Source: a virus. Taken from it: DNA of 64,000 nucleotides. How positions within the stretch are numbered: position 1 is the stretch's first letter; every line of letters starts with the position of its first letter. Below, piece by piece: positions 1 through 36,362 of the stretch. Under the pieces are notes generated by a model. It saw nothing but the letters and a program-made list of their open reading frames with translations, did not search any database and was not told where the DNA came from. A program made the translations under genes and the position numbers. The stretch covers positions 20,700-84,699 of the IMG/VR virus record IMGVR_UViG_3300014720_002243; one strand, written 5' to 3'.

Positions 1-3000
1 TAAATATTGTTTAGGATCTAAAAATGGTTTTACACTATTAAGAAAGTCAGATCCGGTGATACTGTCAGATAAAGACCAAACAAAATTTTCTATATTATTA
101 GTATCTATGTTTTTAATTGGAAAATCAGAACCAATATTTGTGGCATTTTTAAACCTAGGATTAGTTTTGATTTTAGAAGCATCAAAAGACCTCTTACTCC
201 ACACATAAAGATCTGTTAGCTTACTGAGATCTATTCTATCTCCTTTTACAGATGATAAATTGGCTACTTCGTCTTGATCAAGAATATCTCTATTAAATTT
301 AGCTTTTTCTATTAAACCTTTAGAAATATCACTAAGAGCATTCTGATAAAGAGCATATTGATTGGAATAGATAGTCTCTGGACCAAAACTATCCTTCTCT
401 AAATCTTCGAAGTCCGATCTAATTAGTTGTAAAAATTCTAAATTTTCACTAATACTATCTCTAGATGTTCTATATATTTTAGATGGTGGCAATACTGATA
501 GATTTTTTTGTCCAGATCTTGAGGATCTACTAGCTATATCGACAGTAAAGCCGCCCGCTCCATAAATAGGTAATCCTGGATCCCCTGTTGTTATTTGCAG
601 ATTATTTACATCAAATCCAACTGGCATACCAGATCTATTCAAAGCAGATATTTTTTGATTAACTACTGGATCACTGGTGCCAGGAACCAAGAATAGAGCT
701 TTTTCACCAAAACCTTTGGTATATTCTAACTTATTAAGATCAGCTTTAGCCTTAGTAAATATAGCATTATCTATACCTCCACCAAAATCGATAACGGATT
801 TACCTTCCTTGTACCATATGGGTAATTGACTAGACAAGGCTTCTGTATATTTTTGTTGATTATATATTTGATATGTGTTAAGATCTAAATTCTGAAGAAC
901 GCTATCTATCACTGGTTTTAATCTTAAGGCTTCCGCTGCTTCTCTCTCTTCTAAGAATCTTTCTTTAATAGTTCCTATATTTTTGAATAGGGCTTCTGGT
1001 ATAGCTGGTCCTAACTGAGAAACCTGTACATTGTTTGGTGCGTTATCTGCTAAAACAGTACCATTTAGAGCCATCTTATATCTTGGATAAAAACCAATAC
1101 CAACAGAAGTTGCAGAAACTCCATCATTAATAAAGTTTTCAAATGTTTTATAGTTTTCTGAAGATGTAGCACCTAACGGGAATGCATCAGGACCAACAGC
1201 ATTTAATCCTAATGGTATTATACTAGGATTATTTGTTAATTTCATAAGTCTTACAGTATTTGCGTCTCTCAAAGTTTCTGTTAACTGTCCAGGATCAAAG
1301 TGTCTATTTTTACTAAAATTTTTGTTTCTTTTACCAGCAGCATCTGGTGGATTCTGATAAAAATCACTCGATAAACCAAAATTCTTTGTTTCTGCTTCTG
1401 AACTAGCAGAGGTAAAACCAGTTTCATTTTTCAATAAACTAGATACATAACCGCCAGTAGCATAATATTTTACCTTTCCTCCTCTAGCATAAGTATTAGT
1501 ATTAATCGCATTTAATACTGATCCATATTTTTGTGTTGCTGATTTATTGACAACAAATTCTCCAGGAGTCAACATAGCAGGAACAGTATCTGTTCCTTTT
1601 GGCTGGAATATCGAGCCACCGATATTTCTATAAACCACACCACCACTAGAAAGACCAGCGGCTGGGGTCTGTTTAGATAGTATCTCTTCTATCTTTTGCA
1701 GATGAGATACCTGGGCTTCTTCAAATTTAACCAGAGTATCTGTTATGGCGTTTTTAAATGCTTCTTCTGAACTTTGTTTAAGATTTTGAGCAAAATTTGT
1801 GTTCAATTCAGCGAGCAACTCATTGGCCTTAGACTGAATCTTTATTCCTTCTTTATATTGCTCTACTAATTGGGACATCTCCGAATTATTTTCTGGATTT
1901 CTAAGAGACTTAATAACCTCATTAAACATAGGTGTCATTCCTATGCCAGCCTCTTGTAGCATAGTCTCTAAAACATTAGCCTTAATTGTATTCTGCTCTC
2001 TTGTATCTCCTAAGAAAGGAGCCAGCATATTAAATGCTTCGAGAGTATCTCTTCTATCCTGAGCTATAGCTTGATCAGCAGCCAAAACTGGATTATCGCT
2101 ATCTCTCATTGCCTCAAACACATTTCTTGAAGCGAAAGGATCATTAACCATACCCCTCATATTATTATCTAGTCTCTCAAAAGCAGAAGATAGTTTAAAA
2201 TTATCTTCTCTTGTTGACGTTAAGTATCTTTCTATTATATTTTGTCCAGCTTGAGTTTTTGCTTGAACCTCTGATATCTTTTCTAATGCTGCGGATGCTT
2301 GTTCGCTATTGGCCGCTAGATCTTCTAATGCTTTTTGATTATCTCTTAAGGATCTTGTGGTTCTAGATAATTGATCAGTAAAACCTAATACATCTCTAGC
2401 TCCTGACCTTCCTCTGTCTTGGGCTGATTGTAATTGGTTTTGTTGAAATGCTCTTCTATTTTCTAATCTATTAATATTGTCTAATATACCTTCAGGCGAT
2501 GCTGGTCCCCCTGTCTGGTTACGAATAGTTGTGTCTCTAAAACTTTGTATAGCATTTACATCAATACTGGAACCAAAAGTTCTGCTTAATTGTGAGGCGC
2601 TATTGAATCTAATCTCACTAGCTTTTCTTAGTAAATCGCCGGCTTGTACTAAAAGTTCTACTGAAGTATTGGTCTTATCAACTAGAATACCAACTTTTTG
2701 AGCATAGTCTTCCAAAGCCTTAATGGCAATATCTTGTGCTCCCTTGAGAGCGTCTATAGAATCTTTTAATTGTGGAATAGCTTCTTCTAGATCTCTAAAA
2801 TCTACCTTGTCATCTCCACTCTTTCTTCTTTTTTCTAATTCTATGGCTATTTGTTGACCAAGCTTATCACTTAAATCTTGAGGTAATGACGACTCCGTGA
2901 GTTCTGCTCTAACGCTTTTTCTGATAGCAGCAGCTATTGCCTCATCCGTTGTTGATCCGGGCAACGTTTGTGCTGCTTGTATAGATGCTAACACAGCAGA

Positions 3001-6000
3001 TTCTATTTTTGGTCCAATATTAATTAATTCTCTAATTGTACCACTTTCTGAACCAAAGAAAGAACCGGCAACACTAGCAGCTTGTGCTCTCTCTTCATTC
3101 GTCGAAGCTCTGGGATTTCTGATAATATTAGATGTTTCACTCTTAAAAACACCTATTCTAGCTTGACCTTTAACCGAGGCTTCGGCTAGTTCTACAGAAG
3201 TGTTAAAGTTTTCTAGAGCTACAGAACTTCTATTGATAGCTTCATCCATATTTGCAAACATATTTTTCAAACTTCTGGTATAAGCTTTTGTAGCATTATC
3301 TAGATCTATTAATCCTTTTTGTCTTAGCCATATCTGCTCTTGTTGCCTTAACTGTGCTGATGCTTCTATCTGTAAAGCCTCTTCTATTCTTGCTTTCTTA
3401 ACATCCTCAGTCAGTGTTGCATCAGACTGAATGCCCCTGATAATTGCTTCCACCTCAGCATTTGATCTAGCCAAAACTTGTCTTTGAGCATTCCACTCCG
3501 GCCTTCTCATAATATCTTCGCTAGTTTCGCCGGTTGTAAATCTTTGATTAAAAACTTCTAATATAGAGCTTCTGCTTCTACCAAGCAGCAATGAGCTTTC
3601 CTCGGCTGTTGTTCCAGATGTTCTATCTGCACCGAGCGATTGAGCAATAGCCGCTGCTACTGTTCCACCTATAGCTGCCCCTATAGCTGTTCCTAATCCG
3701 GGAGCAATAAAAGTACCTATTGCGCCACCAGCTATGGCTCCGGCACCCAAAGAAGTGCCTGTTGCCATACCAAAGCGTCTATCTCCAGCACTTCTAGCAT
3801 TAGCTTCATTAATAGCTGCAATGCCAGCTGATGTCGCAAAAGTATTGGCTAGTTCAAGAGTTGCTCTATCTTGAACCTTGGAATATTTTTCTAAAGCTTC
3901 TGCTGACTTGGTTAATGCTCTCTCTTGCTGTTTTTGAGCTTCTTCTATTCTACTTTCTTTAAGAGCATTACTATAATCTATAAATGTCTGTGTAAGGGCT
4001 ACAGCCGCCGCAGTTCCGGCTCCAAAAGCTGTTGCTATTCCTCCAACTGTAGATGATCCAAAAATACCTCTAATCTGCTGATTAAAAAATCTGTTTAAGC
4101 TAACTGTATTTATACTTTGTGCAAATTGACCAAGAATCCTCTGTCCGAATCTAGAATCTGCAAAATTACCAATAGCTCTTATAGCTTGAGCAGCTTGGTA
4201 GAAACTTCCTGTTACGGAACCCACAGAAAAAGCTAATCCACTTAATGTTTTTCCTGCTACTGTCGTAGATCCAGCAAATCTTGATGTTGTTTCTATAGCT
4301 GTAGCTAAAGCTCCACCAAATATATTAGCTCTAGTTGATAATTGCTCAATAGATCTATTAAATACAGACGAAGAGAATCTTTGATATCTTTCTTGTATAT
4401 TGGGGTCGTTTTCTCTAGTATTTCTTCTTATCCTTCTACTAACAGGATTATAATCAATACCAGATGGTAAAGTTGCTGAGTAAGGATTAGGAGCACCAGA
4501 ACCCGACATAAAAGCAAATGTTCTCTGACCACCCGGACCTGTAGGACCAGAAGGTGTTGGAGGAGCCATAAAAGGAAATGTTGTTTGAGTATTTGCATCT
4601 GTTTGGGCTTTGGTGGCATCTGTTTGGGCTTTAGTGGCTTCTATTTGCTCCATAATGCGAGCACCCAAATCTTTAAGATCAGCAGAAGATAATCTTTCTC
4701 CCGTAGTAGCGTTTCTGCCACCAGTAGCCTCCCAAGCTAAATGTCTTTGTACTATCTCTTTTTGAAGCTGTGCATCATTTAAAGGATTAGCTAAACGATA
4801 TCTATCGCTGCTTTCTCTTGGATTTTTTTCCATATGCAATTGTTTACCAATATCCCACGCTGCCCAAGATTCGCTCTTGCCCCATTTACTGATAGCTATA
4901 CCAGCGGCTCTAGCCGCATCCTCCATTTCTTTTCTAAGCTTTTCAATTAGAGCATTTACTTTTATTGGGTCTTCGCCAGCTAATGCTTTAGCGTATAATT
5001 GTCCTCTATCATTAACCCCTCTGGATGGACCAATATCGCTATAATCTAATCTACTATAATAATCTTCTGGTTTAACGACTGGTTTTGGATATATTTCGCT
5101 TCCTACACCTCCTACACTCCTAGCCATAGCTTGCATTACGTCTTTAGCATCAGAGGCTCCTGACTCGAAAACTTTTCTACCGGCTCTTGCTTTTTCAACG
5201 TCTTCATAATATTCTTTACCCGGACCTTTATAACTTGAGCTAGAACGTATAGTGTCTAACTCTATAACGTCTAACTTACGAATTCCGGCTCCTAAAATTT
5301 TTCTAATTCCTTCTACTACTTCTGGTCCTAAATTATCAATATTTTTTTGAGCAAATACTAGTTGTTGTCTAAGTTTTAAATTTATATCGTCAAAAGTATC
5401 ACCTGTATTTAAAGATATAGAAGCGGAGTCTAGGGACTTCTCTATAATATTTTTAATACCTTCTGGCATCTTTTGAAAGACTTCCCATGTAGCTGCTATA
5501 ATCTCGTTTAATTGAGCTTCAGAAGCAACATTGCCACCAACATTAAATCTTTGTATTCCTCCTACAGGACCACCTTTATTATATCCTTGTAATTTGTCTG
5601 CTTGATTTAGTCTGTTAAGCTTACCGTATCCTATACTTTGAGCAGCTTTCTTATTGATAACAAACTCACCCGGGGTTAATAATGCTGGAACAGTATCTTC
5701 TGGTGAGCCTCCATTTGCAAATCTTCTAATCGAACCACCCATGGCAGCTCTCTGAAAGTATTGCAGAGCCATGGCTCTACTATCTTGTTTTCTGTTTGTT
5801 TTTATAACAGCGCTTGGATCATTGATTAAAGAAGGAGATTTGCTATAACCGCTTTGTAATATCCATGCTGGATCATTGGCTGGGGGCCATGTTTCTTCTC
5901 TTCCATATAGTTTAGGATCAATATCTGCTTGATTTCTTGTCCAATCATCTGGTTTTAATGGTGTTTTTTTAACATCTCCTCTATTTTTAAAATAATATTC

Positions 6001-9000
6001 CCATACTCTTTTGGCATCGCCACTAACGCTACTTCTATCTGAAGTTAACATAGCTCCTTTTTCAGTAGCTGCTTCCATTACAACATCATATAATCTTGGC
6101 CCATAACCACTAGTAGCTTTGGATAAACCAACGTAATATAGATAATCTCTCATTTTATATGCATTGACATATCCAGATCTATCATCATTACTCTTAAGAT
6201 ACCCTGCACTAATAGTATTTCCATCTTCAGTGATGCTTATCTTACCATAATTTTTAGAGGGCTTGTCTAAAGTAGCGGTGCCTCCATCAGCAAATTTAGT
6301 GGCTTGTAAGAATTCAGATAACGCTTGTTGTTCTGCTGTAACTCTTTGATTGGCCACAGAAGAATCTGCCACGGCATCTAAAGCGGCAAATTTAGCTCCT
6401 TTAACGCGTTTCTTTTGAGAAGCGAACAGTCTAAGCTTTTCCTCAAAATCTTTATCGCTTAATCCCATAAATTTAGCTATTTTTTTCTGTTCTTCAAATT
6501 CTGATTGTGATAATCCATACTTCTTAGCAAGAGGGTCAACTTTACCTCCCCAGAAATAACCTTGTGGCATGGTACTAGCGAAATTAGCATTTAATCCTGA
6601 TGAATAAAATATATCAGAAAGTAATTTTTGTGCTGCTGTATTTTTTTCTAAAACAATCATGTCTAATAAAGAAGGTATTATCTCATTAGCTCCTAATGTA
6701 GATGATATTTCTTTATCTAAAGATTTTATTGTTTCTGATGATTTATATTTTTCTGGTAATATCGTAGTTAATCCTCTAAAAGAAGAACTACCTGTTTTTG
6801 GATCAGTAAACATTTTTTCAGGCTGATATGTTCCTAATAAACTTTTACTAAGTTTAGATTTAGTATATATTTCTAAGTATCTATCTTTATTAGCTAAAGA
6901 CTGTTGTAGTAGATTGTCAAAGATTTGAGGATGATTTAAAGCTAAAAATCCCTGAATAGTATGGAAAGCTTCATGCGGTAAAAGACTCTCGGCGCCAGGA
7001 CCGAGAGTAATTGAATTTTTGGTTTGACTAAGCTTTTCTATAGCAAATTTTTCTAACTCTGAATATTCTGATTCTGTGAATTTACTTTTATTTTTACGCA
7101 AAGAATTTATCAAAACTGAGTAATTTGTACCTTTGGTATATCCAAAATTAGCATTAGGAATCATAAATTTTAAGGCTTTTAGAAACATAGAATTATTTCT
7201 ATTAATATCAACATTTGTACCGACTAAAAATCCATCATCAGCAATATACTCAGCCGGCATTATACTTTTAATAATGTCTTTATATTTTACTAATAAATCA
7301 TCTACTTTTCCACCTTTAGCAAACTGTTGTACCAGATCCCCTTCCGGTTCTGGTACTCCATAAACTCCTCTAAAGTATCTTTGAAATTCCTCCATAGCCT
7401 TAGCTCTAGATGTAGAGTCAATCGTTCTCTTAGCTTCTGTTGGTATATTGGCATCTATACCAAAAACTTTACCAGCTACTTCTCCTATTCCACTTGGAAA
7501 GTCTATAGCTCGTGTTCTAACAGCATCGTCTAGCACATCTGCTCCTAGAGTAGCTAATAATTGTTCAAAAATACCACCCTCTATATTTCCTTGATTAAGC
7601 ACTTCTCTCTTTTTAAGATCTAGACTTTTTAATGATCCTGGTTCTCCCATCATTCCAGCAGCTGTCTGAACTATACTGCCGGTTTGCTCACTAATATAAT
7701 CAGCTACAGCTTTATACTTAGCTGGTAACACTCTTTCCATAATTGTAGCAGATACCGAGACCGGTTCTCCTGCTGTGTTATTACCCAAGTTCCAAGTCAA
7801 TGGGCCTTGTAAACCATTTTTACCTCTAAGGCCAACAATAGCTAACATTTGTGTTTGGGCTATTTGTTGAGCTGTGCTTTCTAATAATGATTGTTGTGAT
7901 CCACTCTTTTGTTTATTAAATAAATCTATAACATAGTCTCTAGTAGCCGCATATGTGGATACGTCTTCTTCTGTAAGACCAGTAATTTCGCCGGGTCTTC
8001 TCATGAATGTCTTATAGTCGCTAAACCAATAAGGAAGATTAGTTTTTACTTTCTTTCCTAGTTTAAGATGATCATACAACGATCTACCAGCAAATTTACC
8101 AAATCTATCCTCGTTAGGAATAACACTATTCCCTAGAGCTTTTAGAACTTCTTGATTAGAAGCTGGTAATAATCCAGATCCTCTAGAAGCTGTTTCTTTT
8201 TGAACTCTAGCTAATATTGATTCTTGAATTGGAGAAAGTGTCTCAGCGGAACCTATGGACGGGAAAGAATCTCTCATACTTTCCGTAACTTGCCCCATCA
8301 TTATATCTCTATCTATATCCTGGGCTGCTGCGGATACGGATGCTGTCCTATTGGGATCTAAAGCATACATTTCAGGATATTGAGAAGATAAAGCTTGAAT
8401 AACATTGTATGCTCTATATCCAAAAGCTCCGCGAGCCATCATATCTCTTTGAGACCTGATTTGCCTTACCTGCTCCGCCACCTCTGGAGCATTTTCTCTG
8501 AGTTTAGCGCTAACATTCTTGTATGGACCTCCGGGAGCTGACTCCAATAATCTCTGCACTTCCGCATTAGAATTAGCTTTTTCTACTTCTACTACTTCTT
8601 TTATTTTTTCCAAAAGCATAGGAACCATCATACTTCGATTACGAAGCTGTGTTCTATTACCCATTAAGATAGAAGCAATGCTTGGGTCTAGATACTCTTG
8701 AAGTAAAGCATCATCTCCTTTGAATAGTGCATCTCTAACCTTTGTAGCACTAATATCTTCTATACGAGGAATATCTTCTACCTGAATTCCTGCTCTTTGA
8801 TATTTGCCAAGTACTCCTTCTTCTTTACCGGATGTAACAGCCATAGCTCCTTTTAATCTAGCAAAACGTCTTCTACCTCCTGAGCCAGCGACCTCCATAA
8901 ACTTAGGCAAAGATCCGGGAGGCTGATCTTGAGTACTAATCATCGCTCCACCGAAATTTATCTGACTCAATAAAGCCCTAAAATCTGATGGGAAAATACC

Positions 9001-12000
9001 GTATCTTGCTGAATGCTCAATACCTTCTGATCCTTCAGTCATCGGAAGATTAGGAGCAACACTAACAACTATATCTTCTATAGAAGCATCGGGGTTTTGC
9101 TTTATCATTCGAGCTAACAAACTATTTAATGCTCCTCTATGACCTCTTGTTGGAGGAGCAAATCCACCAGTATAAAAACCTCCCGCTTGTACAATCTCTG
9201 GTAATTCACTTTCTCTTTTTCTTCTTAAACCATATGAACCATCTTTTCTTCCAAGAACCATCGCTCTAGAGCCCAATTCTTCTCTTAGAACAGTTTCGTC
9301 CAAGGCAAAATCAGTCGTTGCTCCTCTTGTGGTTCCAGGTTTACGCCCGTATAACCCTTGCCCAGTAGCGTCTCTTCTTTCTTTATTCGCTTCTATTTGT
9401 TGTCTTTCTTGAGCAGAAGACGACGATAGTACATAGGCTCGGTCTACATCTCTAAGGTAAGCATCTAGTTTAGAGTCACTAGCTGTTGATGTTAAAACTA
9501 GCACTTCATCGACGTTGGCTATATCTTGTGGCGTTAGTATTTGAGAACGGGTAGTTTTTCTTAAACTTGCATCGTCTGTTGCTCCCACTCCTGTTGCCAA
9601 ACTGCTTTTACCGCTACCAGCAGCTCCAGCGATGGCTCTTAATCTTAAAAGAGATCCAGATTTTCTCGCAGTCGCTGCTCTTTTGGCTAACTCTATACTA
9701 TACGCACTAGTATCTGTTAATCCTAATTTCTCCATTTCTGCTGAAACAGTATCTCTATTGTTTGGATCTCTTAAAACATCTGTATCTATAATTCCAACTC
9801 TTCTTAATGCTACTTGTTTTAATCCTGCTAATCCTCCTACTGCAAATTTTTGTATTAATCCACCTAGGTTAAATCTAGGCTTTCCTTTTCTCTTTTTTAC
9901 ATCTCTCCCCCACTCCCACATTGGTCCAAAACTATCTCCTTCAATATCTTCAATATTATCTTCGCTTAAATGTTTATCTATATAAGTTTTAGATAATACC
10001 ATTCCATCAATAATTGTGGGTTTACCTTTTTTATCATATCCCATATTAGATCCATGAGCGTCTATCCAATATAAACCTCTTTCTGCTAGCTTACCTTGTA
10101 ATAGTTCAGCGTCTCTCATTCCTTTGTCAGTATCATCTGTTTTAACTTTATCTTGTAAAGCAGCAGTTAATTTTCCAAATTGCTGGACTTTTCTATATCC
10201 AGATACATGTTCCAGCCCTTTTGGTAGTTGATAGTTCCCTATTTCTGCTACTTGTTTCTTTTTAAATCCAATATCTTTAGCTATTTGTTGAATGCCAAAA
10301 CCTGTGCGAGAAATTTTTAGTATTTTGTTACCTATATCGAATGCGACATTTTCTCCTCCTGATCCTATAACCTTAGCCGAACTGACACCGTAAGCTTTTT
10401 CTATTTTATCTAATATACTAGACAATCCTTGTATTTTTAAAATATCCGATAAAGAATAGTAGTCATATCTACCGCCCTTATATCCTTTTAGTGCGGACAT
10501 TAGTAGTCCTTGTGTTGTAGTTTTGCCTCCTTTAGCAAATTTTTGTATTAGTCCACCAAAATTTCTACGATTAACTATTGCTTTATTTTGAGGATATAAT
10601 TCAAGATATTTATCTTTAGACAGTTCAGATTCTTTCTTTCCTCCTTCGTATTGATATCCTAATCCCTTAGACAGTAGGGTATTTTTAAGTTGATCATTAG
10701 CAAAAAATGGACGACCATATTTATCTTTACCTCCACCAGTTCTTCTATATCCTTCTTTAAAGTCTTCTGTTACGTCCTGATTTGATCTGTAAAAATTTTC
10801 TGTTTCTTGTTTAGCTGCTGCTGCAAGATTTCTTCTCCATTTTGGTCCTGAGTTTAATTCGTATGTATCTATACCTAATAGTCTACTGCTACTATTATAT
10901 GATTCAGATTTTGGCGTAAATTGAATATTTAAACTATCTCCGTCCCTGACTATCTGATTAATTACTTTCTGTGGCTCAGGAGCCCTGCCTCCACCAGCAA
11001 ATCTTTTTCTTCTACTAGCTGACCCTGCTCTTATACTTCCACCACCACCATACTTATTCATTCTTTGTAAGTTTCCAGCACCAATAGTTTCAACAGCTTT
11101 CTTTCGTATAACGAATTCACCGGGCTGTAACATTGCTGGCACAGTGTCGCTGTTACCTACTCCGGGAACAACACCCCCTCTAGCAAAAGCTCTTACTACT
11201 CCGCCACTATTTATAGTTTGTGGGCCAGTTCTTCTATTATTAGTAATACTAGAATTAAGCTGCTGTACAGCTGATGTTAATGATTGTAAAGCGTTGGTAT
11301 TTGTTGAAAGAGCCCTAGTATTATTAACCGCTGCTGCTGCATTTTGCTGATTTCTAGCTCCGCTTAAAGCTTGTCCTGCATTTTGACCAACTGATCCTGG
11401 AGATTGTCTAGCAAAGCCACCTAAAAAACCACTCCCAAATTGAAATAATGCTTCAGAACCTTTAACCGCTGCGATAGAGGTTAAAATAGGTAATAATGGT
11501 TTAGCTACAGAAGCAACCTTAATAAAGGTATTTGCTAAGGTTAATCCTACATTAACTAAAGATCTAAAACTATCACTATTACCAACATCTCTAATTAATG
11601 CTACGAAATTTTCTCTAGTTTTTACAAACTGTATGGATAGCGAAGCTTGGGCTTTGGCCGCATCGGTTGCTAATGATCCTTGTCCCGCATAAGCTACTTT
11701 TAAGGCTTCCTGTGAAGTTGCAAACTGTTGAATTAAAGGCAACACCTTACCTATTTGACGAAAACCTCCAAGTTCTTCAACTATAGAACTAAATTTCAAA
11801 TCTCTAGGATCTAAACGCCCTAATCCTTGAGCTAATAATTCAACAGCTCTATATGCTCCTACGAATTTACCTTCTACGTCGATTAATGTAACCCCATACT
11901 CTTTAAGAGCTTCAATGGTATCCGCTCTTTGAATACGCGTAAAAATTGTTCTTAAACCTGTTGCAATAGTTTCTGCGCTTTCACGAGTGGTGGCTCTAAC

Positions 12001-12954
12001 ACTAGTAAAAATAGCTAAAAACTCATTAAGAGCATCTGTACCTTCACTAACACCTTTGCTAGCACTAGCAAACACACCACCGGTACGCTGAATAGCTGTA
12101 ATTAAGTCGCTGGATTCTACGGCAAAAGCAGCGGCTACTGAATTAATAGAGCTTAAGGCTTTTTCCAAGTCTCCTGTAGAAATGCTAAACTGTCTCATTA
12201 AAGCGATAGAGCCTTCTACCGTCTCATTTAAACTGTCGAATGATGGAGCAAGAGCACTTAGAGCTAAAGCCTTAAGAGCTTGTTCTGTTTCTCTAGCACT
12301 TAACCCTGCCTGTGCTAATGTGTCTGCAATCCCTATTAACTCACCAGAAGTAACACCTAGGGAAGTAGATAATCCTGTTATAGTTCTGGTCAATCCTCCT
12401 AATTGTTCGTATGAATCTCCTGTAATCTGAGTTAATCTTACTATTTGTCTATCAAACTCTATAAATTCTGCCGTGGCTTTACTAACGGCATTAACTAAGC
12501 TATAAATGGCTCCTGTTGCAAGGCTAAAGGCGGCAAAACGTCTTACTGCCAAAGCCGATTGTCTTCCGAATTCTTCTAATTCTGTTCTAGCGGCAGCGGT
12601 TTGTTGTGCTGCTCTTTGTATGTTTTGAGTTGTTTGAGCTATATTTCTAGGTAAACCGTTTAATGATCTAGAAGCAGAGTTAGCACTAGTTTGAAAAGCA
12701 TTAAGAGCATTAGCCAATTGACTAATATTGGTTGCTGTTAATCTTGATTGAGTACTAGTTGTTGTTAATACATTATTTAATCTGGTTAATGTAGTCGCTA
12801 GTTTATTTGCATTATTCGATGCTTGTGGATCTATTTTAACTGTAACAGCAGTATCTATGGTACCTAGTTGTCTACGAATGTCAGCTATAACATTCCTTAC
12901 ATTTGATGGTCCTCTTAGATTAATCTCTGCTGTTAGATTAAAACCTTTAGCCAT
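1..12954 (-). CDS. giant tail tape measure protein with embedded enzyme-like domains (C terminus beyond left edge)
   Basis: ATG at 12954 has AAAGGA nine bases upstream. The frame is open for 4,318 codons to the window edge, so the protein is incomplete. Residues about 110-430 match the TP901-type tape measure core (Ala/Ser/Thr-rich helices with LAVRRFAAFSLATGAIY and ITAIQRTGGVFASASKG). The motif DTVPAMLxPGEFVI, common in long tape measures, occurs near residues 600, 2415 and 3785. Between the first two lie enzyme-like cassettes (listed separately), separated by linkers of the form GGLIQKFAxGG. Residues 3065-3110 are a Gly/Ala-rich hydrophobic stretch. In the family, this protein sets tail length and can carry domains released on infection. 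It is the last gene of the visible late operon. At about 0.15 nm per residue the tail would exceed 600 nm, unless the cassettes do not count towards length. Confidence 0.93.
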   Translation of the reverse strand, partial: MAKGFNLTAEINLRGPSNVRNVIADIRRQLGTIDTAVTVKIDPQASNNANKLATTLTRLNNVLTTTSTQSRLTATNISQLANALNAFQTSANSASRSLNGLPRNIAQTTQNIQRAAQQTAAARTELEEFGRQSALAVRRFAAFSLATGAIYSLVNAVSKATAEFIEFDRQIVRLTQITGDSYEQLGGLTRTITGLSTSLGVTSGELIGIADTLAQAGLSARETEQALKALALSALAPSFDSLNETVEGSIALMRQFSISTGDLEKALSSINSVAAAFAVESSDLITAIQRTGGVFASASKGVSEGTDALNEFLAIFTSVRATTRESAETIATGLRTIFTRIQRADTIEALKEYGVTLIDVEGKFVGAYRAVELLAQGLGRLDPRDLKFSSIVEELGGFRQIGKVLPLIQQFATSQEALKVAYAGQGSLATDAAKAQASLSIQFVKTRENFVALIRDVGNSDSFRSLVNVGLTLANTFIKVASVAKPLLPILTSIAAVKGSEALFQFGSGFLGGFARQSPGSVGQNAGQALSGARNQQNAAAAVNNTRALSTNTNALQSLTSAVQQLNSSITNNRRTGPQTINSGGVVRAFARGGVVPGVGNSDTVPAMLQPGEFVIRKKAVETIGAGNLQRMNKYGGGGSIRAGSASRRKRFAGGGRAPEPQKVINQIVRDGDSLNIQFTPKSESYNSSSRLLGIDTYELNSGPKWRRNLAAAAKQETENFYRSNQDVTEDFKEGYRRTGGGKDKYGRPFFANDQLKNTLLSKGLGYQYEGGKKESELSKDKYLELYPQNKAIVNRRNFGGLIQKFAKGGKTTTQGLLMSALKGYKGGRYDYYSLSDILKIQGLSSILDKIEKAYGVSSAKVIGSGGENVAFDIGNKILKISRTGFGIQQIAKDIGFKKKQVAEIGNYQLPKGLEHVSGYRKVQQFGKLTAALQDKVKTDDTDKGMRDAELLQGKLAERGLYWIDAHGSNMGYDKKGKPTIIDGMVLSKTYIDKHLSEDNIEDIEGDSFGPMWEWGRDVKKRKGKPRFNLGGLIQKFAVGGLAGLKQVALRRVGIIDTDVLRDPNNRDTVSAEMEKLGLTDTSAYSIELAKRAATARKSGSLLRLRAIAGAAGSGKSSLATGVGATDDASLRKTTRSQILTPQDIANVDEVLVLTSTASDSKLDAYLRDVDRAYVLSSSSAQERQQIEANKERRDATGQGLYGRKPGTTRGATTDFALDETVLREELGSRAMVLGRKDGSYGLRRKRESELPEIVQAGGFYTGGFAPPTRGHRGALNSLLARMIKQNPDASIEDIVVSVAPNLPMTEGSEGIEHSARYGIFPSDFRALLSQINFGGAMISTQDQPPGSLPKFMEVAGSGGRRRFARLKGAMAVTSGKEEGVLGKYQRAGIQVEDIPRIEDISATKVRDALFKGDDALLQEYLDPSIASILMGNRTQLRNRSMMVPMLLEKIKEVVEVEKANSNAEVQRLLESAPGGPYKNVSAKLRENAPEVAEQVRQIRSQRDMMARGAFGYRAYNVIQALSSQYPEMYALDPNRTASVSAAAQDIDRDIMMGQVTESMRDSFPSIGSAETLSPIQESILARVQKETASRGSGLLPASNQEVLKALGNSVIPNEDRFGKFAGRSLYDHLKLGKKVKTNLPYWFSDYKTFMRRPGEITGLTEEDVSTYAATRDYVIDLFNKQKSGSQQSLLESTAQQIAQTQMLAIVGLRGKNGLQGPLTWNLGNNTAGEPVSVSATIMERVLPAKYKAVADYISEQTGSIVQTAAGMMGEPGSLKSLDLKKREVLNQGNIEGGIFEQLLATLGADVLDDAVRTRAIDFPSGIGEVAGKVFGIDANIPTEAKRTIDSTSRAKAMEEFQRYFRGVYGVPEPEGDLVQQFAKGGKVDDLLVKYKDIIKSIMPAEYIADDGFLVGTNVDINRNNSMFLKALKFMIPNANFGYTKGTNYSVLINSLRKNKSKFTESEYSELEKFAIEKLSQTKNSITLGPGAESLLPHEAFHTIQGFLALNHPQIFDNLLQQSLANKDRYLEIYTKSKLSKSLLGTYQPEKMFTDPKTGSSSFRGLTTILPEKYKSSETIKSLDKEISSTLGANEIIPSLLDMIVLEKNTAAQKLLSDIFYSSGLNANFASTMPQGYFWGGKVDPLAKKYGLSQSEFEEQKKIAKFMGLSDKDFEEKLRLFASQKKRVKGAKFAALDAVADSSVANQRVTAEQQALSEFLQATKFADGGTATLDKPSKNYGKISITEDGNTISAGYLKSNDDRSGYVNAYKMRDYLYYVGLSKATSGYGPRLYDVVMEAATEKGAMLTSDRSSVSGDAKRVWEYYFKNRGDVKKTPLKPDDWTRNQADIDPKLYGREETWPPANDPAWILQSGYSKSPSLINDPSAVIKTNRKQDSRAMALQYFQRAAMGGSIRRFANGGSPEDTVPALLTPGEFVINKKAAQSIGYGKLNRLNQADKLQGYNKGGPVGGIQRFNVGGNVASEAQLNEIIAATWEVFQKMPEGIKNIIEKSLDSASISLNTGDTFDDINLKLRQQLVFAQKNIDNLGPEVVEGIRKILGAGIRKLDVIELDTIRSSSSYKGPGKEYYEDVEKARAGRKVFESGASDAKDVMQAMARSVGGVGSEIYPKPVVKPEDYYSRLDYSDIGPSRGVNDRGQLYAKALAGEDPIKVNALIEKLRKEMEDAARAAGIAISKWGKSESWAAWDIGKQLHMEKNPRESSDRYRLANPLNDAQLQKEIVQRHLAWEATGGRNATTGERLSSADLKDLGARIMEQIEATKAQTDATKAQTDANTQTTFPFMAPPTPSGPTGPGGQRTFAFMSGSGAPNPYSATLPSGIDYNPVSRRIRRNTRENDPNIQERYQRFSSSVFNRSIEQLSTRANIFGGALATAIETTSRFAGSTTVAGKTLSGLAFSVGSVTGSFYQAAQAIRAIGNFADSRFGQRILGQFAQSINTVSLNRFFNQQIRGIFGSSTVGGIATAFGAGTAAAVALTQTFIDYSNALKESRIEEAQKQQERALTKSAEALEKYSKVQDRATLELANTFATSAGIAAINEANARSAGDRRFGMATGTSLGAGAIAGGAIGTFIAPGLGTAIGAAIGGTVAAAIAQSLGADRTSGTTAEESSLLLGRSRSSILEVFNQRFTTGETSEDIMRRPEWNAQRQVLARSNAEVEAIIRGIQSDATLTEDVKKARIEEALQIEASAQLRQQEQIWLRQKGLIDLDNATKAYTRSLKNMFANMDEAINRSSVALENFNTSVELAEASVKGQARIGVFKSETSNIIRNPRASTNEERAQAASVAGSFFGSESGTIRELINIGPKIESAVLASIQAAQTLPGSTTDEAIAAAIRKSVRAELTESSLPQDLSDKLGQQIAIELEKRRKSGDDKVDFRDLEEAIPQLKDSIDALKGAQDIAIKALEDYAQKVGILVDKTNTSVELLVQAGDLLRKASEIRFNSASQLSRTFGSSIDVNAIQSFRDTTIRNQTGGPASPEGILDNINRLENRRAFQQNQLQSAQDRGRSGARDVLGFTDQLSRTTRSLRDNQKALEDLAANSEQASAALEKISEVQAKTQAGQNIIERYLTSTREDNFKLSSAFERLDNNMRGMVNDPFASRNVFEAMRDSDNPVLAADQAIAQDRRDTLEAFNMLAPFLGDTREQNTIKANVLETMLQEAGIGMTPMFNEVIKSLRNPENNSEMSQLVEQYKEGIKIQSKANELLAELNTNFAQNLKQSSEEAFKNAITDTLVKFEEAQVSHLQKIEEILSKQTPAAGLSSGGVVYRNIGGSIFQPKGTDTVPAMLTPGEFVVNKSATQKYGSVLNAINTNTYARGGKVKYYATGGYVSSLLKNETGFTSASSEAETKNFGLSSDFYQNPPDAAGKRNKNFSKNRHFDPGQLTETLRDANTVRLMKLTNNPSIIPLGLNAVGPDAFPLGATSSENYKTFENFINDGVSATSVGIGFYPRYKMALNGTVLADNAPNNVQVSQLGPAIPEALFKNIGTIKERFLEEREAAEALRLKPVIDSVLQNLDLNTYQIYNQQKYTEALSSQLPIWYKEGKSVIDFGGGIDNAIFTKAKADLNKLEYTKGFGEKALFLVPGTSDPVVNQKISALNRSGMPVGFDVNNLQITTGDPGLPIYGAGGFTVDIASRSSRSGQKNLSVLPPSKIYRTSRDSISENLEFLQLIRSDFEDLEKDSFGPETIYSNQYALYQNALSDISKGLIEKAKFNRDILDQDEVANLSSVKGDRIDLSKLTDLYVWSKRSFDASKIKTNPRFKNATNIGSDFPIKNIDTNNIENFVWSLSDSITGSDFLNSVKPFLDPKQYL
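5990..6260 (-). other. acetyltransferase-like segment inside the tape measure
   Basis: Residues about 2230-2320 include YYVGLSKATSGYGPRLYDVV, then a strand and LTSDRSSVSGDAKRVWEYYF. The GYGxxLYD segment resembles the acetyl-CoA pyrophosphate loop and helix of GNAT folds. The SDRxxVSxDAxRVW segment recurs, in my memory, in GNAT-like phage proteins. It is bounded by FADGG and FANGG linkers. Confidence 0.35.
6880..7060 (-). other. HExxH metallopeptidase-like motif inside the tape measure
   Basis: Around residue 1992 the sequence LLPHEAFHTIQGFL contains HExxH in a helix-compatible context. It is preceded by a strand-like segment (NSITLGPGAES). This is typical of zinc metallopeptidases. The third zinc ligand is not obvious to me. 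A peptidoglycan or self-processing role is possible but unproven. Confidence 0.5.
8690..9210 (-). other. nucleotidyltransferase (HIGH-superfamily)-like domain inside the tape measure
   Basis: Residues about 1250-1420 start with GGFYTGGFAPPTRGHRGAL, which fits the GxFxPxHxGH nucleotide-binding signature with Thr in place of the first His. They end with EDISATKVRDAL, the IS(S/A)TxVR signature. NadM-like and cytidylyltransferase-like enzymes have both motifs about 120-170 residues apart, as here. Together with the preceding P-loop this resembles NadR-type two-domain organisation, but in reversed order. Confidence 0.65.
9240..9645 (-). other. P-loop (Walker A) domain inside the tape measure
   Basis: Residues about 1103-1238 begin with a hydrophobic strand and the Walker A loop GAAGSGKSS (9601-9633). 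An Asp-containing strand (VDEVLVL) follows, and then an Arg/Lys-rich lid-like region (QERQQIEANKERR). This layout suits a small kinase or zeta-toxin-like NTPase. It directly precedes the nucleotidyltransferase-like domain. Function is inferred from the motifs only. Confidence 0.55.
9960..10510 (-). other. protein-kinase-like domain inside the tape measure
   Basis: Residues about 815-1000 contain a Gly-rich loop (VIGSGGENVAFDIGNKILKIS, with the last Lys placed like the ATP-binding Lys). A catalytic-loop match follows, WIDAHGSNMGY, with Asp and Asn five residues apart as in HRDxxxxN. A metal-binding-like PTIIDG comes next. The same IDAHxxNxGY signature recurs in the separate gene at 49659-50258, which supports a shared fold. 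Substrate unknown; an antibiotic-kinase-like or inactive scaffold role is possible. Confidence 0.6.
10640..10965 (-). other. SNase (thermonuclease)-like domain inside the tape measure
   Basis: Residues about 663-771 of the tape measure read VRDGDSLNIQF, then SSRLLGIDTYEL, then GKDKYGRPFFAND followed by LLSKGLGYQY. This is the order of the staphylococcal nuclease fold: DGD metal site, RLxGIDxxE with its Arg, and DxYGR followed by a GL-x-Y helix. It is flanked on both sides by FA-x-GG linkers. Nuclease activity is inferred, not shown; one canonical Pro after GID is replaced by Tyr. Confidence 0.6.
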
Positions 12955-12975
12955 ATATTATGTCCTTTGAGTATT

Positions 12976-13015
12976 CAAAAATAAAAACACCAACAAGTCG
13001 TAAAACCTGCTGGTG
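12976..13015 (-). terminator. hairpin terminator or attenuator just upstream of the tape measure
   Basis: On the minus strand a 10-bp stem (CACCAGCAGG with CTTGTTGGTG) around an eight-base loop is followed by TTTTTATTTTTG. It ends 21 bases before the tape-measure start. No promoter fits between the two, so transcription of the giant gene must read through it. Confidence 0.75.
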
Positions 13016-13050
13016 CTTTTAAAAAACAAAAAAAGTGAAGTAAACTAAAA

Positions 13051-13947
13051 TCAGCTATTTTCTGAAACAGTTGGTTCAACAGGTTCCTTGACTGGTTCCT
13101 GTGCCACAACTGGTTTGGGTGTTTCTGTTTTTGTATTTCCATTATTATTTTCATCTACAATAACTGGGTTACCATCATCATCTAGGAATGGAGCGGTTTC
13201 TACTATATAGGAACCTTCTTCATCTACTCTATTACCAAACTTATCAACAAAATTACCTTGTTCATCAATAAATCGACCATTCTCATCAACTAGCCTACCT
13301 TCTGCATCAATCAAACGGCCTTGTTTATCAATTAGTCTTAGTTTATCATCAACAAACTTAAATTTCTTTAAGAATTTGTTTTCTGGTAAACCAGACTCAT
13401 AATCGTTATCCAAACCATACAACATTGAAGCCAAATTTTGAGCACCCTTTATCGCAGCATCTTCTCCTATCCTATTAAGATAGTCTTCCATATCTTTAAA
13501 ATATGGCTGTTTGCTATCATTATACACCAAACAGCTTGATACGAGATAGTTAAACCTAGCATTATCAGCCTGTCCTTCAGCACTATGATTATCTAGAGAT
13601 GTCTTAACAGAGATAAGCTCTCTAATTTCATCTCTATTCTTTTTCATATCCATCGCTAACTGTTTGGCCTCTTTAAGACTAAAGCCACCCTTGGCTAATC
13701 TTCTTTCTCCGTCCAAAATCTGTTGTTGCAGGGTATTGAACTTGACCTGTTTTTCATCATTCCATAAACCCTGATCCTGTAATAGATCATCTAATTTAGC
13801 TCTTACTACTGCTTTGCTTTTAACCGCATCTGTAAAAGCTTGATTATAAACCTTCTGAGCCTCTCTCTGGTCGTGGATAGAGGGCGAACGAACCATCAAA
13901 TCAACCTTCTGTTCATTAACCATAGCTGTAAAAGTTTTAGTCTTCAT
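13051..13947 (-). CDS. tail assembly chaperone-like protein with tandem heptad repeats
   Basis: 298 residues. It sits between the major tail protein region and the tape measure, the usual place of tail assembly chaperones, and overlaps the previous gene by four bases (ATGA), implying coupled translation. Residues 1-185 are helical and charged. Residues about 198-260 form tandem seven-residue repeats of the type LIDxxGR (LIDKQGR, LIDAEGR, LVDENGR, FIDEQGN, FVDKFGN). The C terminus is Pro/Glu/Val-rich and likely disordered. The chaperone role is inferred from position. No slippery heptamer was found for a frameshift fusion with the previous gene. Confidence 0.7.
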   Translation of the reverse strand: MKTKTFTAMVNEQKVDLMVRSPSIHDQREAQKVYNQAFTDAVKSKAVVRAKLDDLLQDQGLWNDEKQVKFNTLQQQILDGERRLAKGGFSLKEAKQLAMDMKKNRDEIRELISVKTSLDNHSAEGQADNARFNYLVSSCLVYNDSKQPYFKDMEDYLNRIGEDAAIKGAQNLASMLYGLDNDYESGLPENKFLKKFKFVDDKLRLIDKQGRLIDAEGRLVDENGRFIDEQGNFVDKFGNRVDEEGSYIVETAPFLDDDGNPVIVDENNNGNTKTETPKPVVAQEPVKEPVEPTVSENS

Positions 13948-14267
13948 ACTTCATCGTCCTTTCTGTTTTTATCATTAAAATAGAATTTGTAGTTGTATCT
14001 CGTAAAAGGTTTATCTTGAGCTATTTTTCGAATATCATCTATAACAGCTCTAATTTGATTATTTCCATGATTTAATATACCAGTTCTAGTATACTCCCAA
14101 GTATCTTGAAACTTTTCTTGACTTGCCGTAAGAGGCTTATCGTAGTCTTCATCATAACCCCATAGGGTGCCGAACGAACTCTCGAATCTTGCCAAACAGC
14201 CTATCATAGTGGTTTCTAGTCTTTTTGATACTAAATTTATAATAAGATCTTGTTCTTCTTTTGTCAT
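13944..14267 (-). CDS. small tail protein, possible first tail assembly chaperone
   Basis: 107 residues, helical and acidic/basic mixed, no recognised domain. The ATGA overlap with the next gene (repeat-containing, 13051-13947) and the location before the tape measure fit the short first member of a tail-chaperone pair. The start is preceded by AAGGATT. It ends in a charged NDKNRKDDEV tail. Confidence 0.6.
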   Translation of the reverse strand: MTKEEQDLIINLVSKRLETTMIGCLARFESSFGTLWGYDEDYDKPLTASQEKFQDTWEYTRTGILNHGNNQIRAVIDDIRKIAQDKPFTRYNYKFYFNDKNRKDDEV

Positions 14268-14278
14268 ATATTAATCCT

Positions 14279-15322
14279 TTATTTAGGAGGTGGTCCTTGA
14301 TTTAATTTCATTTTAACTTCTCTCTGAACGTCTGGTAATTGGAATTCATCAATAGCTTTATCAGAAGATAAAACAACTTTTTGTCTTTCTTGCAAGGTTT
14401 GTCTAGAGTTTTGGGAATTTAGGTCAAAAATCTCTTGAGCTTCTTGATTATCAGTAGCCATTACAAATACTTCCGCAGCATTATTAGCTTTTCCACTTTT
14501 ACTAGATAATGTTTGACTCTTCTTTTCTTTTTCTCTCTTTCTCTTCTGTGAGATCATCCACCCATCCAGAGCATCATCATCCTCTATAATATCATCATTG
14601 GGACAATCTGGGTGTTCATATACAGAATCATACATCCTGCTTAAATTAATTAATACCCTTTGCTCATCGGTATAATCGCTAGAATCTGAACCAAATACAT
14701 TAGTTTTTCCACTAGCATTCCAGTACGACTTCCATATCTCTGATTTAACTAATGATTTTAAAGAATCTATACCAGGAATATTTTTAGCTATTTCATTGGC
14801 GCAATCATTCAAAAAATCTGATTCATTCTTTTTGTTTTTATTAAATACTTTGTGAGTATTAGTACTGTTATATAAACAATTCATAATAATATATTCATTA
14901 CGAATTCTAGACGCATATGCTTCTATAGTATGCTGATCTATAGAATGTTTTATATTAGATAGATTACTTGTTTGTTTTCTTATGTTTTTAATTTTATTAC
15001 GATAATCTTGTTTTTTTTTGCTAAACATAAAGTTTTCAAATAATAATACTTTGAGATCGTCTAATTGTTTATCCAATTCCTTGAGAGTGTTCTCATGGTT
15101 ATTGCTCCAAAGTCCATTTTCCATAAGAACAAATTTGGTTTTATCTAAAGTTAACCATCCATCATATATATGATCTTGGATAGTCTCTTCATATAATAAA
15201 TCTGCTTTATAATTTATTTCTTTAGAAGCTTTTCTATAGATATATTTTTTGTTGTTAATTCTAACTAACATAGAACCAAAAACAATCCTGGATAGCAGAA
15301 TATCGTTGCTAGTCCTCATCAT
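14279..15322 (-). CDS. structural or tail-associated protein of unknown function
   Basis: 347 residues. An N-terminal half of beta/charged segments carries a basic coiled-coil-like stretch (residues about 85-125), followed by a DDD/EDDD-rich acidic patch near residue 245 and a KRKREKEKK patch. The C terminus is Gln/Pro-rich (LNQGPPPK). It lies in the tail block, 11 bases upstream of the chaperone pair. Two consecutive ATGs could start it. I do not recognise the family. Confidence 0.75.
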   Translation of the reverse strand: MMRTSNDILLSRIVFGSMLVRINNKKYIYRKASKEINYKADLLYEETIQDHIYDGWLTLDKTKFVLMENGLWSNNHENTLKELDKQLDDLKVLLFENFMFSKKKQDYRNKIKNIRKQTSNLSNIKHSIDQHTIEAYASRIRNEYIIMNCLYNSTNTHKVFNKNKKNESDFLNDCANEIAKNIPGIDSLKSLVKSEIWKSYWNASGKTNVFGSDSSDYTDEQRVLINLSRMYDSVYEHPDCPNDDIIEDDDALDGWMISQKRKREKEKKSQTLSSKSGKANNAAEVFVMATDNQEAQEIFDLNSQNSRQTLQERQKVVLSSDKAIDEFQLPDVQREVKMKLNQGPPPK

Positions 15323-15336
15323 TTAAAGAAAATCCT

Positions 15337-15480
15337 CTAATTCTTATTAGAAAGCTGCTCCTCCAATTCCTGTATTCTTGCGTCTTTATCCTTTAATTGC
15401 TGTTGAAAATTAGATATGATTCCTTGCATCTGAACCATGTCTGTATATAGCTTTCCTATAATTGTAAATAGCTCCTCCAT
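15337..15480 (-). CDS. small coiled-coil protein
   Basis: 47 residues starting MEELFTIIGKLYTDM, with a heptad-like C-terminal helix (FQQQLKDKDARIQELEEQL). A strong AGGAGG ribosome-binding site lies five bases before the ATG. It fills the gap between the major tail protein and the 347-residue gene. The size and coiled coil resemble small tail or scaffolding accessory proteins. Function unknown. Confidence 0.75.
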   Translation of the reverse strand: MEELFTIIGKLYTDMVQMQGIISNFQQQLKDKDARIQELEEQLSNKN

Positions 15481-15513
15481 CTGTCCTCCTGTTTATTCTT
15501 TTAACTAATTATA

Positions 15514-16524
15514 TCAACCCCAATTAACCTTAAAGTCATTGTAATTACGATAACTATATGTAATTGTAGCATTTCCACCACCAGTGTCACCACCACTGTA
15601 GTTTACTGATGTTAGCTTATTCTGTGTGCCAAGGTCGATTGTTACTACTTTTCTGCCGCTAATAACATTTTCTGAGTTACCATCAGCATCTACACCAGCT
15701 GGTAGAGCACAAACTACTAGTACGATAGTTTCGTTGCTAAGATTGCTTGTGGCACCTTGTTGGCAACCACTATCAACCATGTCTGCTGCAACACCGTCGC
15801 TATTCTGGGCTAGAACCTGGAACTCTGATGTTACTTCTACGGGGAAAGTAGCATAACGATGATAAGGTGTTCTTTGACCTAGAACGAAAATACTTTCGCG
15901 GCCCAAACTAACACTAGCACTAGCACTATTTAGCACAGCACTATTGCTTTGATTAACACTAGCTGGTATTGTCGAAGCGTCTTTATTGAAAGCCCATCTT
16001 TGAGCTACAGGAGCAATACCAGTTGATGTTGTTACTGCTGATCCGGACCATTCTTTATGGTTACCTACTAGAGTTAGTTCTTCTGTAAAATTACCGTCAT
16101 TAGTTAGATTATAACTGATACTAGAAACATACATACCTGTGCATTTTACTGTGGCCTGTGCTGTTCCTGTGGCAGCAATATTTGTATCAGCAAAAATGCT
16201 TAACTGTAGTGTGGCTCTAGCGTTCTGTAGTTCTGCTAAACTCTTGTTGGCAGCACTGGCTCCGCCACATGCTTGTAAATAAACTGGCATACGACCATCA
16301 ATAATCTTACTTAGAGTAACTTCTACTTCTGGTACTCCTTCGGTAATATAATAGCTGGCCAATTGCCCCAACTGATAAGTGGGATCAAGAGCAAAAGTTG
16401 TATTAATACCTACACTTTGCAAACCGCCCGCCTCTGTAACCGAGGGATTAGCGCTTCCGTTAATATTACCACCTAGGGCGACGTTTTGTACAGCGTAGTA
16501 AATTCTTTTATTCTGATTTGCCAT
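15514..16524 (-). CDS. major tail (tube) protein
   Basis: 336 residues from the ATG at 16524, chosen because AAGGG lies about eight bases upstream and MANQNKRIYYAVQNVALG is a typical structural start. An in-frame ATG at 16599 lacks such a site. The sequence is beta-rich with many Thr/Ser/Asn/Gly, including EGVPEVEVTLSKIIDGRMP, like tail-tube proteins. Two downstream genes match chaperones and the tape measure in order. A C-terminal Gly-rich strand region (GGDTGGGNATITYSYRNY) may be an Ig-like addition. Confidence 0.75.
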   Translation of the reverse strand: MANQNKRIYYAVQNVALGGNINGSANPSVTEAGGLQSVGINTTFALDPTYQLGQLASYYITEGVPEVEVTLSKIIDGRMPVYLQACGGASAANKSLAELQNARATLQLSIFADTNIAATGTAQATVKCTGMYVSSISYNLTNDGNFTEELTLVGNHKEWSGSAVTTSTGIAPVAQRWAFNKDASTIPASVNQSNSAVLNSASASVSLGRESIFVLGQRTPYHRYATFPVEVTSEFQVLAQNSDGVAADMVDSGCQQGATSNLSNETIVLVVCALPAGVDADGNSENVISGRKVVTIDLGTQNKLTSVNYSGGDTGGGNATITYSYRNYNDFKVNWG

Positions 16525-16611
16525 TTTTAAACCCTTTGTTATTTGTTGGATCGTTGACAGGAAGGAATGAAATGCATCTTCAGCATAAGTATACACCAAA
16601 AAAATTAAAAG

Positions 16612-17571
16612 CTATAATACTGTTTTGATTGTAACTCTGGTAGCATTATAGTATAAATCGCTTTGTAGTGTTTCATTATCTATACTCTTAATATCTTCAA
16701 AACTAGAGTATTTCCAAAAATAAGCCGAATTATTAAGTAGATTTAAATAATTGATTCTATTGGAATTTAGTGATCCATTACTATTTAGTTCATAAACTTT
16801 GTCTTTGACCACTTTTTTAAGATCATATAATAATAATGTTCTATCTTTTTGTAGTTTAATAATATCTACAATATTTTGTTTATCTATAGCATTTTCTGTA
16901 AAAACATGCAACATTATATCTTGAGAAGCCAAAAAAACGGTCGAACCCAATTGATAAGGTTTGTAACTATTTCCTGGTATAACTTGCACTATTACGCAAG
17001 GCATTTGAGCGTTGGGTTTGCTTTTTAAATTTTTAGTATCTTCTGATCTTAAAAATGTGTACCTCTGTAGATCTTTTAAGTTAGACAAATTATCTGTAGC
17101 TTTATAGGTTTGAATAGCTTTGTAGGAATAATCCATTTGCACAGATGTATTGGCCGGTAATCCGCTAGTAAAAATAACTCTACCAAAATTATAATCTAAA
17201 GTATAAGAATACTGCGAGTTACCTGTTGGTCCAGGGATAAAAGTGCTATTGACATAAACTCCACTAATTTGTATTGGTGATATTCCTTTGTACTGGATAC
17301 CACTTGTCGATACCCATTGCCTCTTAGGCGTTTCCCAGATCCTTCCTGAAGACTCTATTAAAAATTGGGGATCAGACTGAAGCTTTAAATTATGAAAACC
17401 AATAGCGTTATTAATATTTTGTGTTGGCCTATTAATATTGATAAATCCACCTATATTTAGAAAACCCCAATCTAGAAAGCTCTTAAGGTTATCCTCTAGT
17501 TGAGTTTCTAAATAATAAGAATTAAAGTCTTCAACATTTTGAAAACCAGGATTATAATTACAATTAGTCAT
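16612..17571 (-). CDS. virion neck/tail-completion protein (putative)
   Basis: 319 residues, beta-rich, Asn/Tyr/Ser-rich. An N-terminal short helix is followed by TLDYNFGRVIFTSGLPANTSVQMDYSY-type strands (residues about 120-150), which resemble phage surface or tail-terminator folds. It overlaps the upstream gene by one base. Position between the connector genes and the major tail protein suggests head-tail joining or tail termination. No firm family match. Confidence 0.7.
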   Translation of the reverse strand: MTNCNYNPGFQNVEDFNSYYLETQLEDNLKSFLDWGFLNIGGFININRPTQNINNAIGFHNLKLQSDPQFLIESSGRIWETPKRQWVSTSGIQYKGISPIQISGVYVNSTFIPGPTGNSQYSYTLDYNFGRVIFTSGLPANTSVQMDYSYKAIQTYKATDNLSNLKDLQRYTFLRSEDTKNLKSKPNAQMPCVIVQVIPGNSYKPYQLGSTVFLASQDIMLHVFTENAIDKQNIVDIIKLQKDRTLLLYDLKKVVKDKVYELNSNGSLNSNRINYLNLLNNSAYFWKYSSFEDIKSIDNETLQSDLYYNATRVTIKTVL

Positions 17572-18712: not shown

Positions 18713-18716
18713 TGCT

Positions 18717-19223: not shown

Positions 19224-19225
19224 AT

Positions 19226-20695: not shown

Positions 20696-20704
20696 GTTAT
20701 TTCC

Positions 20705-32730: not shown

Positions 32731-32752
32731 AATGTATATAAAGGAGAATTTT

Positions 32753-35926: not shown

Positions 35927-36006
35927 TAACCCGTTGAGACGCAAGGCTTTGCGTTCGACGGGGCCACAGAGGCTTGACGTAAACCCTTGCAAATCAACAA
36001 CATAGC
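35927..36006 (+). repeat. intergenic repeat element, copy 2 of 21
   Basis: CGCAAGGCTTTGCG, GGGGCC core and CGTAAACCCTTG; the fourth half-site is degenerate. Three bases after a stop codon. Confidence 0.8.
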
Positions 36007-36083
36007 AAATACCATGCCAAACAAAGGTAAAACCGTAAAAAGTTTTGTCAAAATCTCTTGACAGAAAAATCCAAAGATTTTGC

Positions 36084-36112: not shown

Positions 36113-36140
36113 GTCGATATAAGAAAAGAGGAGAAAAAAG

Positions 36141-36350: not shown

Positions 36351-36362
36351 AAAGGAAATGAT

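Follow-up and report, generated by a model that had tools for sequence, protein, structure and literature searches.

A giant phage tape measure protein with candidate enzyme cassettes at two linker-bounded sites

Single cell-wall enzymes in phage tape measure proteins (TMPs) and polyvalent effectors in phages are both already known. The TMP of phage Douge is trimeric, its tail tube has a lumen of about 3.5 nm, and its 1,699 residues, peptidase included, correspond to a tail of 269.6 nm, i.e., 0.159 nm per residue (PMC13033339). Katyusha carries a transglycosylase domain in a TMP of 3,027 residues, with a tail of about 500 nm (0.165 nm per residue). The metallopeptidase-annotated TMP of P74-26 has 5,006 residues for a tail of up to 875 nm, which gives 0.175 nm per residue at the upper end quoted (PMC13033339), and the ratio for CL131 is 0.169 nm per residue. 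In TM4, the tail measures 180 nm instead of 200 nm once a 114-residue hydrolase motif has been deleted from the TMP (PMC1796659). Polyvalent proteins, for their part, comprise domains that include kinase, zincin, GNAT, NTase and others (PMC5512222). A survey of domain shuffling could not confirm genuine recent mosaicism in tape measures (PMC10684548).

The protein described here shares with the TP901-1/PhageMin_Tail TMPs (TIGR01760, PF10145) an N-terminal domain, a place in the tail block and a conserved C-terminal end. It differs from them in its length of 6,543 residues and in two sites that hold candidate enzyme cassettes.

The tape measure gene and its surroundings

The window, i.e., the whole 64,000-base stretch analysed, comprises bases 20700–84699 of a linear, 84,699-base viral record from an uncultured phage. 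On its minus strand, the tape measure frame starts with an ATG at position 12954 and stays open over 4,318 codons (1–12954) until it leaves the window at the left edge. A preliminary description had reported this single open frame and proposed a leftward extension to find its stop. The frame was confirmed, and the stop was met at record position 14022, 6.7 kb left of the window. In the record, the full frame encodes 6,543 residues with zero internal stops: residues 1–4318 lie at window positions 1–12954 and the remainder at record 14022–20699. Given the base composition, 6,543 stop-free codons have a chance of about 10^-228. An assembly join or a frameshift, considered as a source of the long frame, was ruled out by the existence of 26 further complete and distinct frames in the family, by the absence of internal stops and by an even GC3 over the entire frame (0.18–0.23). 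Indeed, the frame is not a join artefact, because the 26 family frames lie on separate contigs and span 1,958–7,574 residues.

The identity proposed for the protein is supported by matches to TIGR01760 (E 1e-25, residues 151–458, 90.5 bits against a curated cut-off of 28.8) and PF10145 (PhageMin_Tail; E 8e-22, 78.6 against a cut-off of 33.2). PHROG tape measures also match within the first 500 residues. This N-terminal core (residues 151–458; 11581–12504, minus strand) was present in all 26 relatives compared, and the C-terminus is also common to relatives. The gene sits in the virion structural block, with the TerL gene and other minus-strand genes upstream and a tail protein gene downstream. 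Judged from these matches, the frame is a real TMP, with a TIGR01760/PhageMin_Tail N-terminus and the C-terminus of its relatives. No close relative was found among cultured phages, and residues 640–1885 and 1885–2800 were unmatched in 50,697 phage records.

The downstream tail protein (record 1557–6548, left of the window) has 1,663 residues, with fibronectin III domains and RCC1 repeats, and a protein of 2,240 residues at record 7286–14008 has no Pfam match. At window 32732–34579 (plus strand), a 615-residue protein matches phrog_13807 over its full length and, more weakly, glutamine amidotransferase PHROGs. Twelve tRNA genes lie within window 43819–57814, and a Pistol ribozyme (48072–48135, plus strand; 56.5 bits, gathering threshold 34.5) is located near phage tRNA genes. 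The region 36000–56000 has a GC content of 0.41–0.44, compared with 0.33–0.39 in the left half, and contains short frames in all six frames and no tandem repeats. An alternative genetic code was considered for the right half of the window, where no stop reassignment clearly lengthens the frames. A host search in cellular genomes returned a single 5.3-kb contig (RFNS01000194.1) from an alphaproteobacterial MAG; it encodes the N-terminal core of the family and is probably a mis-binned phage.

Linkers, insertion sites and candidate cassettes

The N-terminal core (N-core), used as a query against viral contigs, gave 48 loci, 47 of them at 61–79% identity. Truncated genes were completed by fetching the remaining DNA and joining the pieces, which yielded 35 relatives with a complete frame (1,958–7,574 residues). 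With near-copies dropped, the window protein and its relatives form a set of 27 distinct complete proteins. A conserved GEFVINK-type linker, about 60 residues long (consensus GTDTVPAMLTPGEFVINK), is present in 2 to 8 copies in each of them and, as the motif 'DTVPAMLTPGEFVINK', bounds two insertion sites, A and B. It splits every family protein alike into an N-core (509–673 residues), site A (309–2,182), core 2 (914–1,473), site B (0–3,375) and a C-terminal end. The three shortest members are without the third linker and without site B, and in all members having site B the last linker lies close to the conserved C-terminal domain. Once sites A and B are subtracted, 1,649–2,542 residues remain per protein (median 2,198, sd 189, n = 27). 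The variance of this core length equals 1.7% of the total-length variance, nearly all length variation lying in sites A and B; these statistics are descriptive, since the 27 proteins share kinship. The linker also occurs in solved TMPs, with two copies in Douge gp16 (E 6e-9) and a match in lambda gpH at 751–785 (E 1e-3), and is therefore old. In Douge gp16, both copies flank the NlpC/P60 domain; the window family is therefore a second case of this linker flanking an enzyme.

The window protein is divided into an N-core of 583 residues, site A (1,761), core 2 (1,311), site B (2,506) and an end of 151 residues; all features below are on the minus strand. Site A is opened by linker motif 1 (residues 583–644, DTVPAMLQPGEFVIRKKAV; 11023–11208), the profile of which also matches the Douge and lambda TMPs, and closed by linker motif 2 (residues 2405–2467; 5554–5742), located with the linker profile. 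Core 2 (residues 2468–3777; 1624–5553), delimited by family comparison, contains a glycine-rich, membrane-like stretch at residues 3073–3092. Linker motif 3 (residues 3778–3831; 1462–1623), also located with the profile, opens site B. The start of site B (residues 3832–4318; 1–1461) has no homologue among relatives; the site continues outside the window to residue 6336, with linkers at 4977, 5595 and 6337. An SHD1 domain lies at residues 5428–5486 (E 3e-8), and apart from it site B has no homologue in the family. An ADP-ribosyltransferase considered at residues 4820–4975 received no support from a Pfam search. Pfam searches on the relatives returned few families; pieces of their tape measures gave matches to the ADP-ribosyltransferase PF03496 (two pieces, E 5e-9) and to EF-hands.

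In the preliminary description, the protein was a multi-enzyme chain of six enzyme-like motif sets between tape-measure signatures. As an architecture this is supported, the six sets following one another in order over residues 650–2405, between linker motifs 1 and 2. The enzyme folds fared unequally: those of the nuclease and the NMN adenylyltransferase (NMNAT), and fairly that of the P-loop kinase, are supported, whereas the protein-kinase-like, HExxH and GNAT-like assignments derive from motifs or weak fold matches.

Cassette 1 (residues 650–800; 10555–11007; motifs DGD, RLLGIDTYE and YGR) matches thermonucleases of the PDB (E 4e-5), and the catalytic motifs DGD, RxxxxDxxE and GR are conserved in all three sequences that contain it; its prediction as a staphylococcal nuclease domain is well supported. 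Cassette 2 (residues 805–1035; 9850–10542) is tentatively protein-kinase-like from its motifs (GSGGENVAF, ILKIS, WIDAHGSN and IIDG), which are conserved with one relative (L037); it had no PDB sequence match and its structure model was of low confidence. Cassette 3 (residues 1040–1240; 9235–9837) bears a Walker A motif (GAAGSGKSS) that is invariant in 13 sequences, and its model matches the fold of zeta toxin (probability 0.84). Cassette 4 (residues 1236–1445; 8620–9249; PPTRGH and ISATKVR) matches NMNAT structures (probability 1.00, E 4e-4), the motifs (H/T)xGH, here TxGH, and ISxTxxR being invariant in 13 sequences. HIGH_NTase1_ass Pfam matches were obtained in the tape measures of relatives. 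Cassette 3 would thus be a zeta-type P-loop kinase, an assignment fairly well supported for the P-loop, fused to the NMNAT fold of cassette 4, for which the prediction as an NMN adenylyltransferase is well supported. The chain unites two or more unrelated enzyme domains, namely the nuclease and the NMNAT, with the P-loop kinase.

A segment without assigned function follows (residues 1440–1885; 7300–8637), at least partly common to 14 relatives. Cassette 5 (residues 1900–2140; 6535–7257) is tentatively zincin-like, from an HExxH motif (PHEAFH) with a conserved downstream glutamate, found in four sequences; searches gave no PDB sequence match and no structural homologue. Cassette 6 (residues 2228–2405; 5740–6273) had no PDB sequence match either. 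Its model has pLDDT values mostly of 80–95, and acetyltransferases rank top by probability (0.82–0.85), yet with E values of about 0.6, so that it is called GNAT-like only tentatively.

The cassettes are distributed patchily over the 26 relatives: the nuclease occurs in two, the kinase in one, the P-loop/NMNAT pair in 12, the HExxH segment in three and the GNAT-like segment in six. A scan with five cassette profiles found 70 loci, 69 of which are inside giant linker-bearing frames. On a contig of 320,934 bases, a 376-codon relative of the GNAT cassette lies outside such frames and is a possible free-standing source. The dN/dS values are 0.04–0.41 for the cassettes and 0.06–0.10 for the N-core. 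These low values reflect purifying selection, and the cassettes are therefore maintained.

The tape measure gene of the relative L034 is a mosaic at the DNA level, with its main changes of donor at linkers. The stretch up to residue 594 shares 92% identity with L051 and about 77% with L031, whereas residues 601–800, the first part of site A, are 97–100% identical to L031 and unmatched in L051. For core 2, identity with L051 returns at about 87%, against mostly 61–79% with L031; the beginning of site B is 85–97% identical to L032 and L031, and the C-terminus is again L051-like. For the P-loop/NMNAT cassette, L031 and L034 differ by a dS of 0.07, compared with 1.6 for their N-cores. In another pair, L019 and L025, the proteins stay alike as far as residue 577, inside the first linker, beyond which an insertion of about 200 residues sets them apart. 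Over all pairs, the match ends of which are not independent, 34 of 134 ends (25%) lie within 30 residues of a linker, whereas shifting gives an expectation of 9.4%; three quarters of the ends fall away from linkers. Exchange of cassettes among relatives by recombination, often at linkers, is shown by these alignments.

Tail length and proposed delivery

At about 0.16 nm per residue, the window protein would specify a tail of about 1.04 µm and the 7,574-residue member one of 1.2 µm. A tail of more than 600 nm, and of about 1 µm by the published ratio, is thus plausible. The TMP of the Nodularia phage vB_NpeS-2AV2 has 3,404 residues, and the tail length reported for this phage, 795 nm, corresponds to 0.23 nm per residue, more than the usual value; the ratio is therefore not universal. 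Nodularia TMPs contain the linker and are otherwise unlike the window family, and their length ratio does not fit.

The preliminary description had allowed that the cassettes might not add to length. In that case, about 2,200 constant residues would set a tail of about 0.36 µm, and the cassettes would be looped out, placed at the tail ends or packed in folded form. This alternative agrees with the family core, the length of which is nearly constant while totals vary four-fold, and with the resemblance of the cassettes to compact enzymes. However, TM4 loses about 20 nm upon deletion of its enzyme motif, as predicted if cargo counts, and Douge without its inter-linker segment would require more than 0.2 nm per residue instead of the 0.159 nm of the whole protein. 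The trimeric state of the Douge TMP argues in the same direction, since a lumen of about 3.5 nm would not admit three folded enzymes side by side. We therefore regard a core-only ruler as unlikely; the published TM4, Douge, Katyusha and P74-26 data indicate that enzyme segments within a TMP contribute to tail length, and a tail near 1 µm is favoured over a short one whose ruler excludes the cassettes.

We consider it somewhat probable that the protein is the complete, single-chain TMP of a long-tailed phage and that it also carries exchangeable enzyme cassettes for delivery into the host. The tail is probably non-contractile: a search of 14 family records for the sheath family PF04984 gave no match while the controls were positive, a result to be read with the fact that the records are fragments and that sheaths diverge. 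The entire chain, cassettes included, would be threaded through the tail tube and count toward its length. The C-terminus would occupy the tail tip, as it does in Douge (PMC13033339), and exit first on infection, and the membrane-like stretch of core 2 may enter the inner membrane. The cassettes would then reach the host, fold there and act as early effectors, with putative roles as a nuclease, as nucleotide or NAD enzymes and as protein modifiers. Since enzyme segments are swapped by recombination among relatives, the ruler is probably also a cargo train that is injected before the viral DNA. During infection, an enzyme fused to ManZ, a protein of the inner membrane, labels the lambda TMP (PMC13190303), which fits the proposed delivery.

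Two further explanations place the enzymes elsewhere. The chain might be a polyprotein precursor that is cut at the linkers in assembly, leaving the ruler as the N-terminal product and freeing the enzymes as virion or cell proteins. Lambda gpH loses its C-terminal part during assembly, and the linker match in gpH is near its C-terminal end. The HExxH segment would also suit this explanation, as zincins have been proposed to process polyvalent proteins (PMC5512222), but it is present in just 3 of 26 relatives. Moreover, the conserved C-terminal domain with the last linker nearby suggests that the tail tip, like that of Douge, requires an intact C-terminus, and we judge processing of this kind decidedly unlikely. 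Alternatively, the inserts might chiefly aid the crossing of the cell envelope, like the peptidoglycan hydrolases in other TMPs; indeed, in other phages, peptidoglycan is the target of those TMP enzymes that have been studied. However, a Pfam-level search of the window TMP found no peptidoglycan hydrolase, and an NMN adenylyltransferase and a P-loop kinase require cytoplasmic substrates, enzymes that use ATP and NMN being sensible only in the cytoplasm. A role mainly in envelope penetration is thus very improbable. For the carrier reading, a broader form is conceivable but held with less than even confidence: in a widespread phage family, the ruler would be a loadable delivery chain with two ports and linker-swapped cassettes, each gain of cargo lengthening the tail (about 0.3–1.2 µm). 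If true, the cargo would consist of whole cassettes for nucleotide and NAD metabolism, nucleic-acid cleavage and protein modification, and close relatives would differ in tail length, from about 0.3 to 1.2 µm.

Comparison with known systems

No report of a tape measure as a polyvalent carrier with exchange ports was found in the open-access papers searched. A close likeness within a ruler is offered by TM4 gp17 (mt3) and Douge gp16 (NlpC/P60), which also hold an enzyme segment, flanked in Douge by two linker copies. Yet mycobacteriophage TMPs carry one cell-wall enzyme, whereas the window TMP appears to carry a chain of nucleotide- and protein-directed enzymes. The TMP of Thermus phage P74-26 is also very long and metallopeptidase-annotated, but with 5,006 residues it is shorter than the window TMP; it is the longest cultured TMP compared, and the family members of 6,543–7,574 residues exceed it.

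Polyvalent proteins (Iyer et al. 2017, PMC5512222) likewise join many unrelated enzyme domains in one chain and are encoded among virion genes. The window chain differs in being built into a tape measure, and tape measures are never mentioned in PMC5512222. Effectors of contractile injection systems (Sle1 and Tme; PMC13277306, PMC11126660) resemble it in combining a TMP-like scaffold with exchangeable functional domains, but they belong to bacterial injection systems, whereas the window protein is a phage ruler with a cassette chain. Unlike the outcome of the domain-shuffling survey (PMC10684548), the L034 gene displays tape measure mosaicism at the DNA level. The family makes two questions testable, namely whether cargo within a ruler makes the tail longer and whether effectors that act in the cytoplasm are delivered by tape measures.
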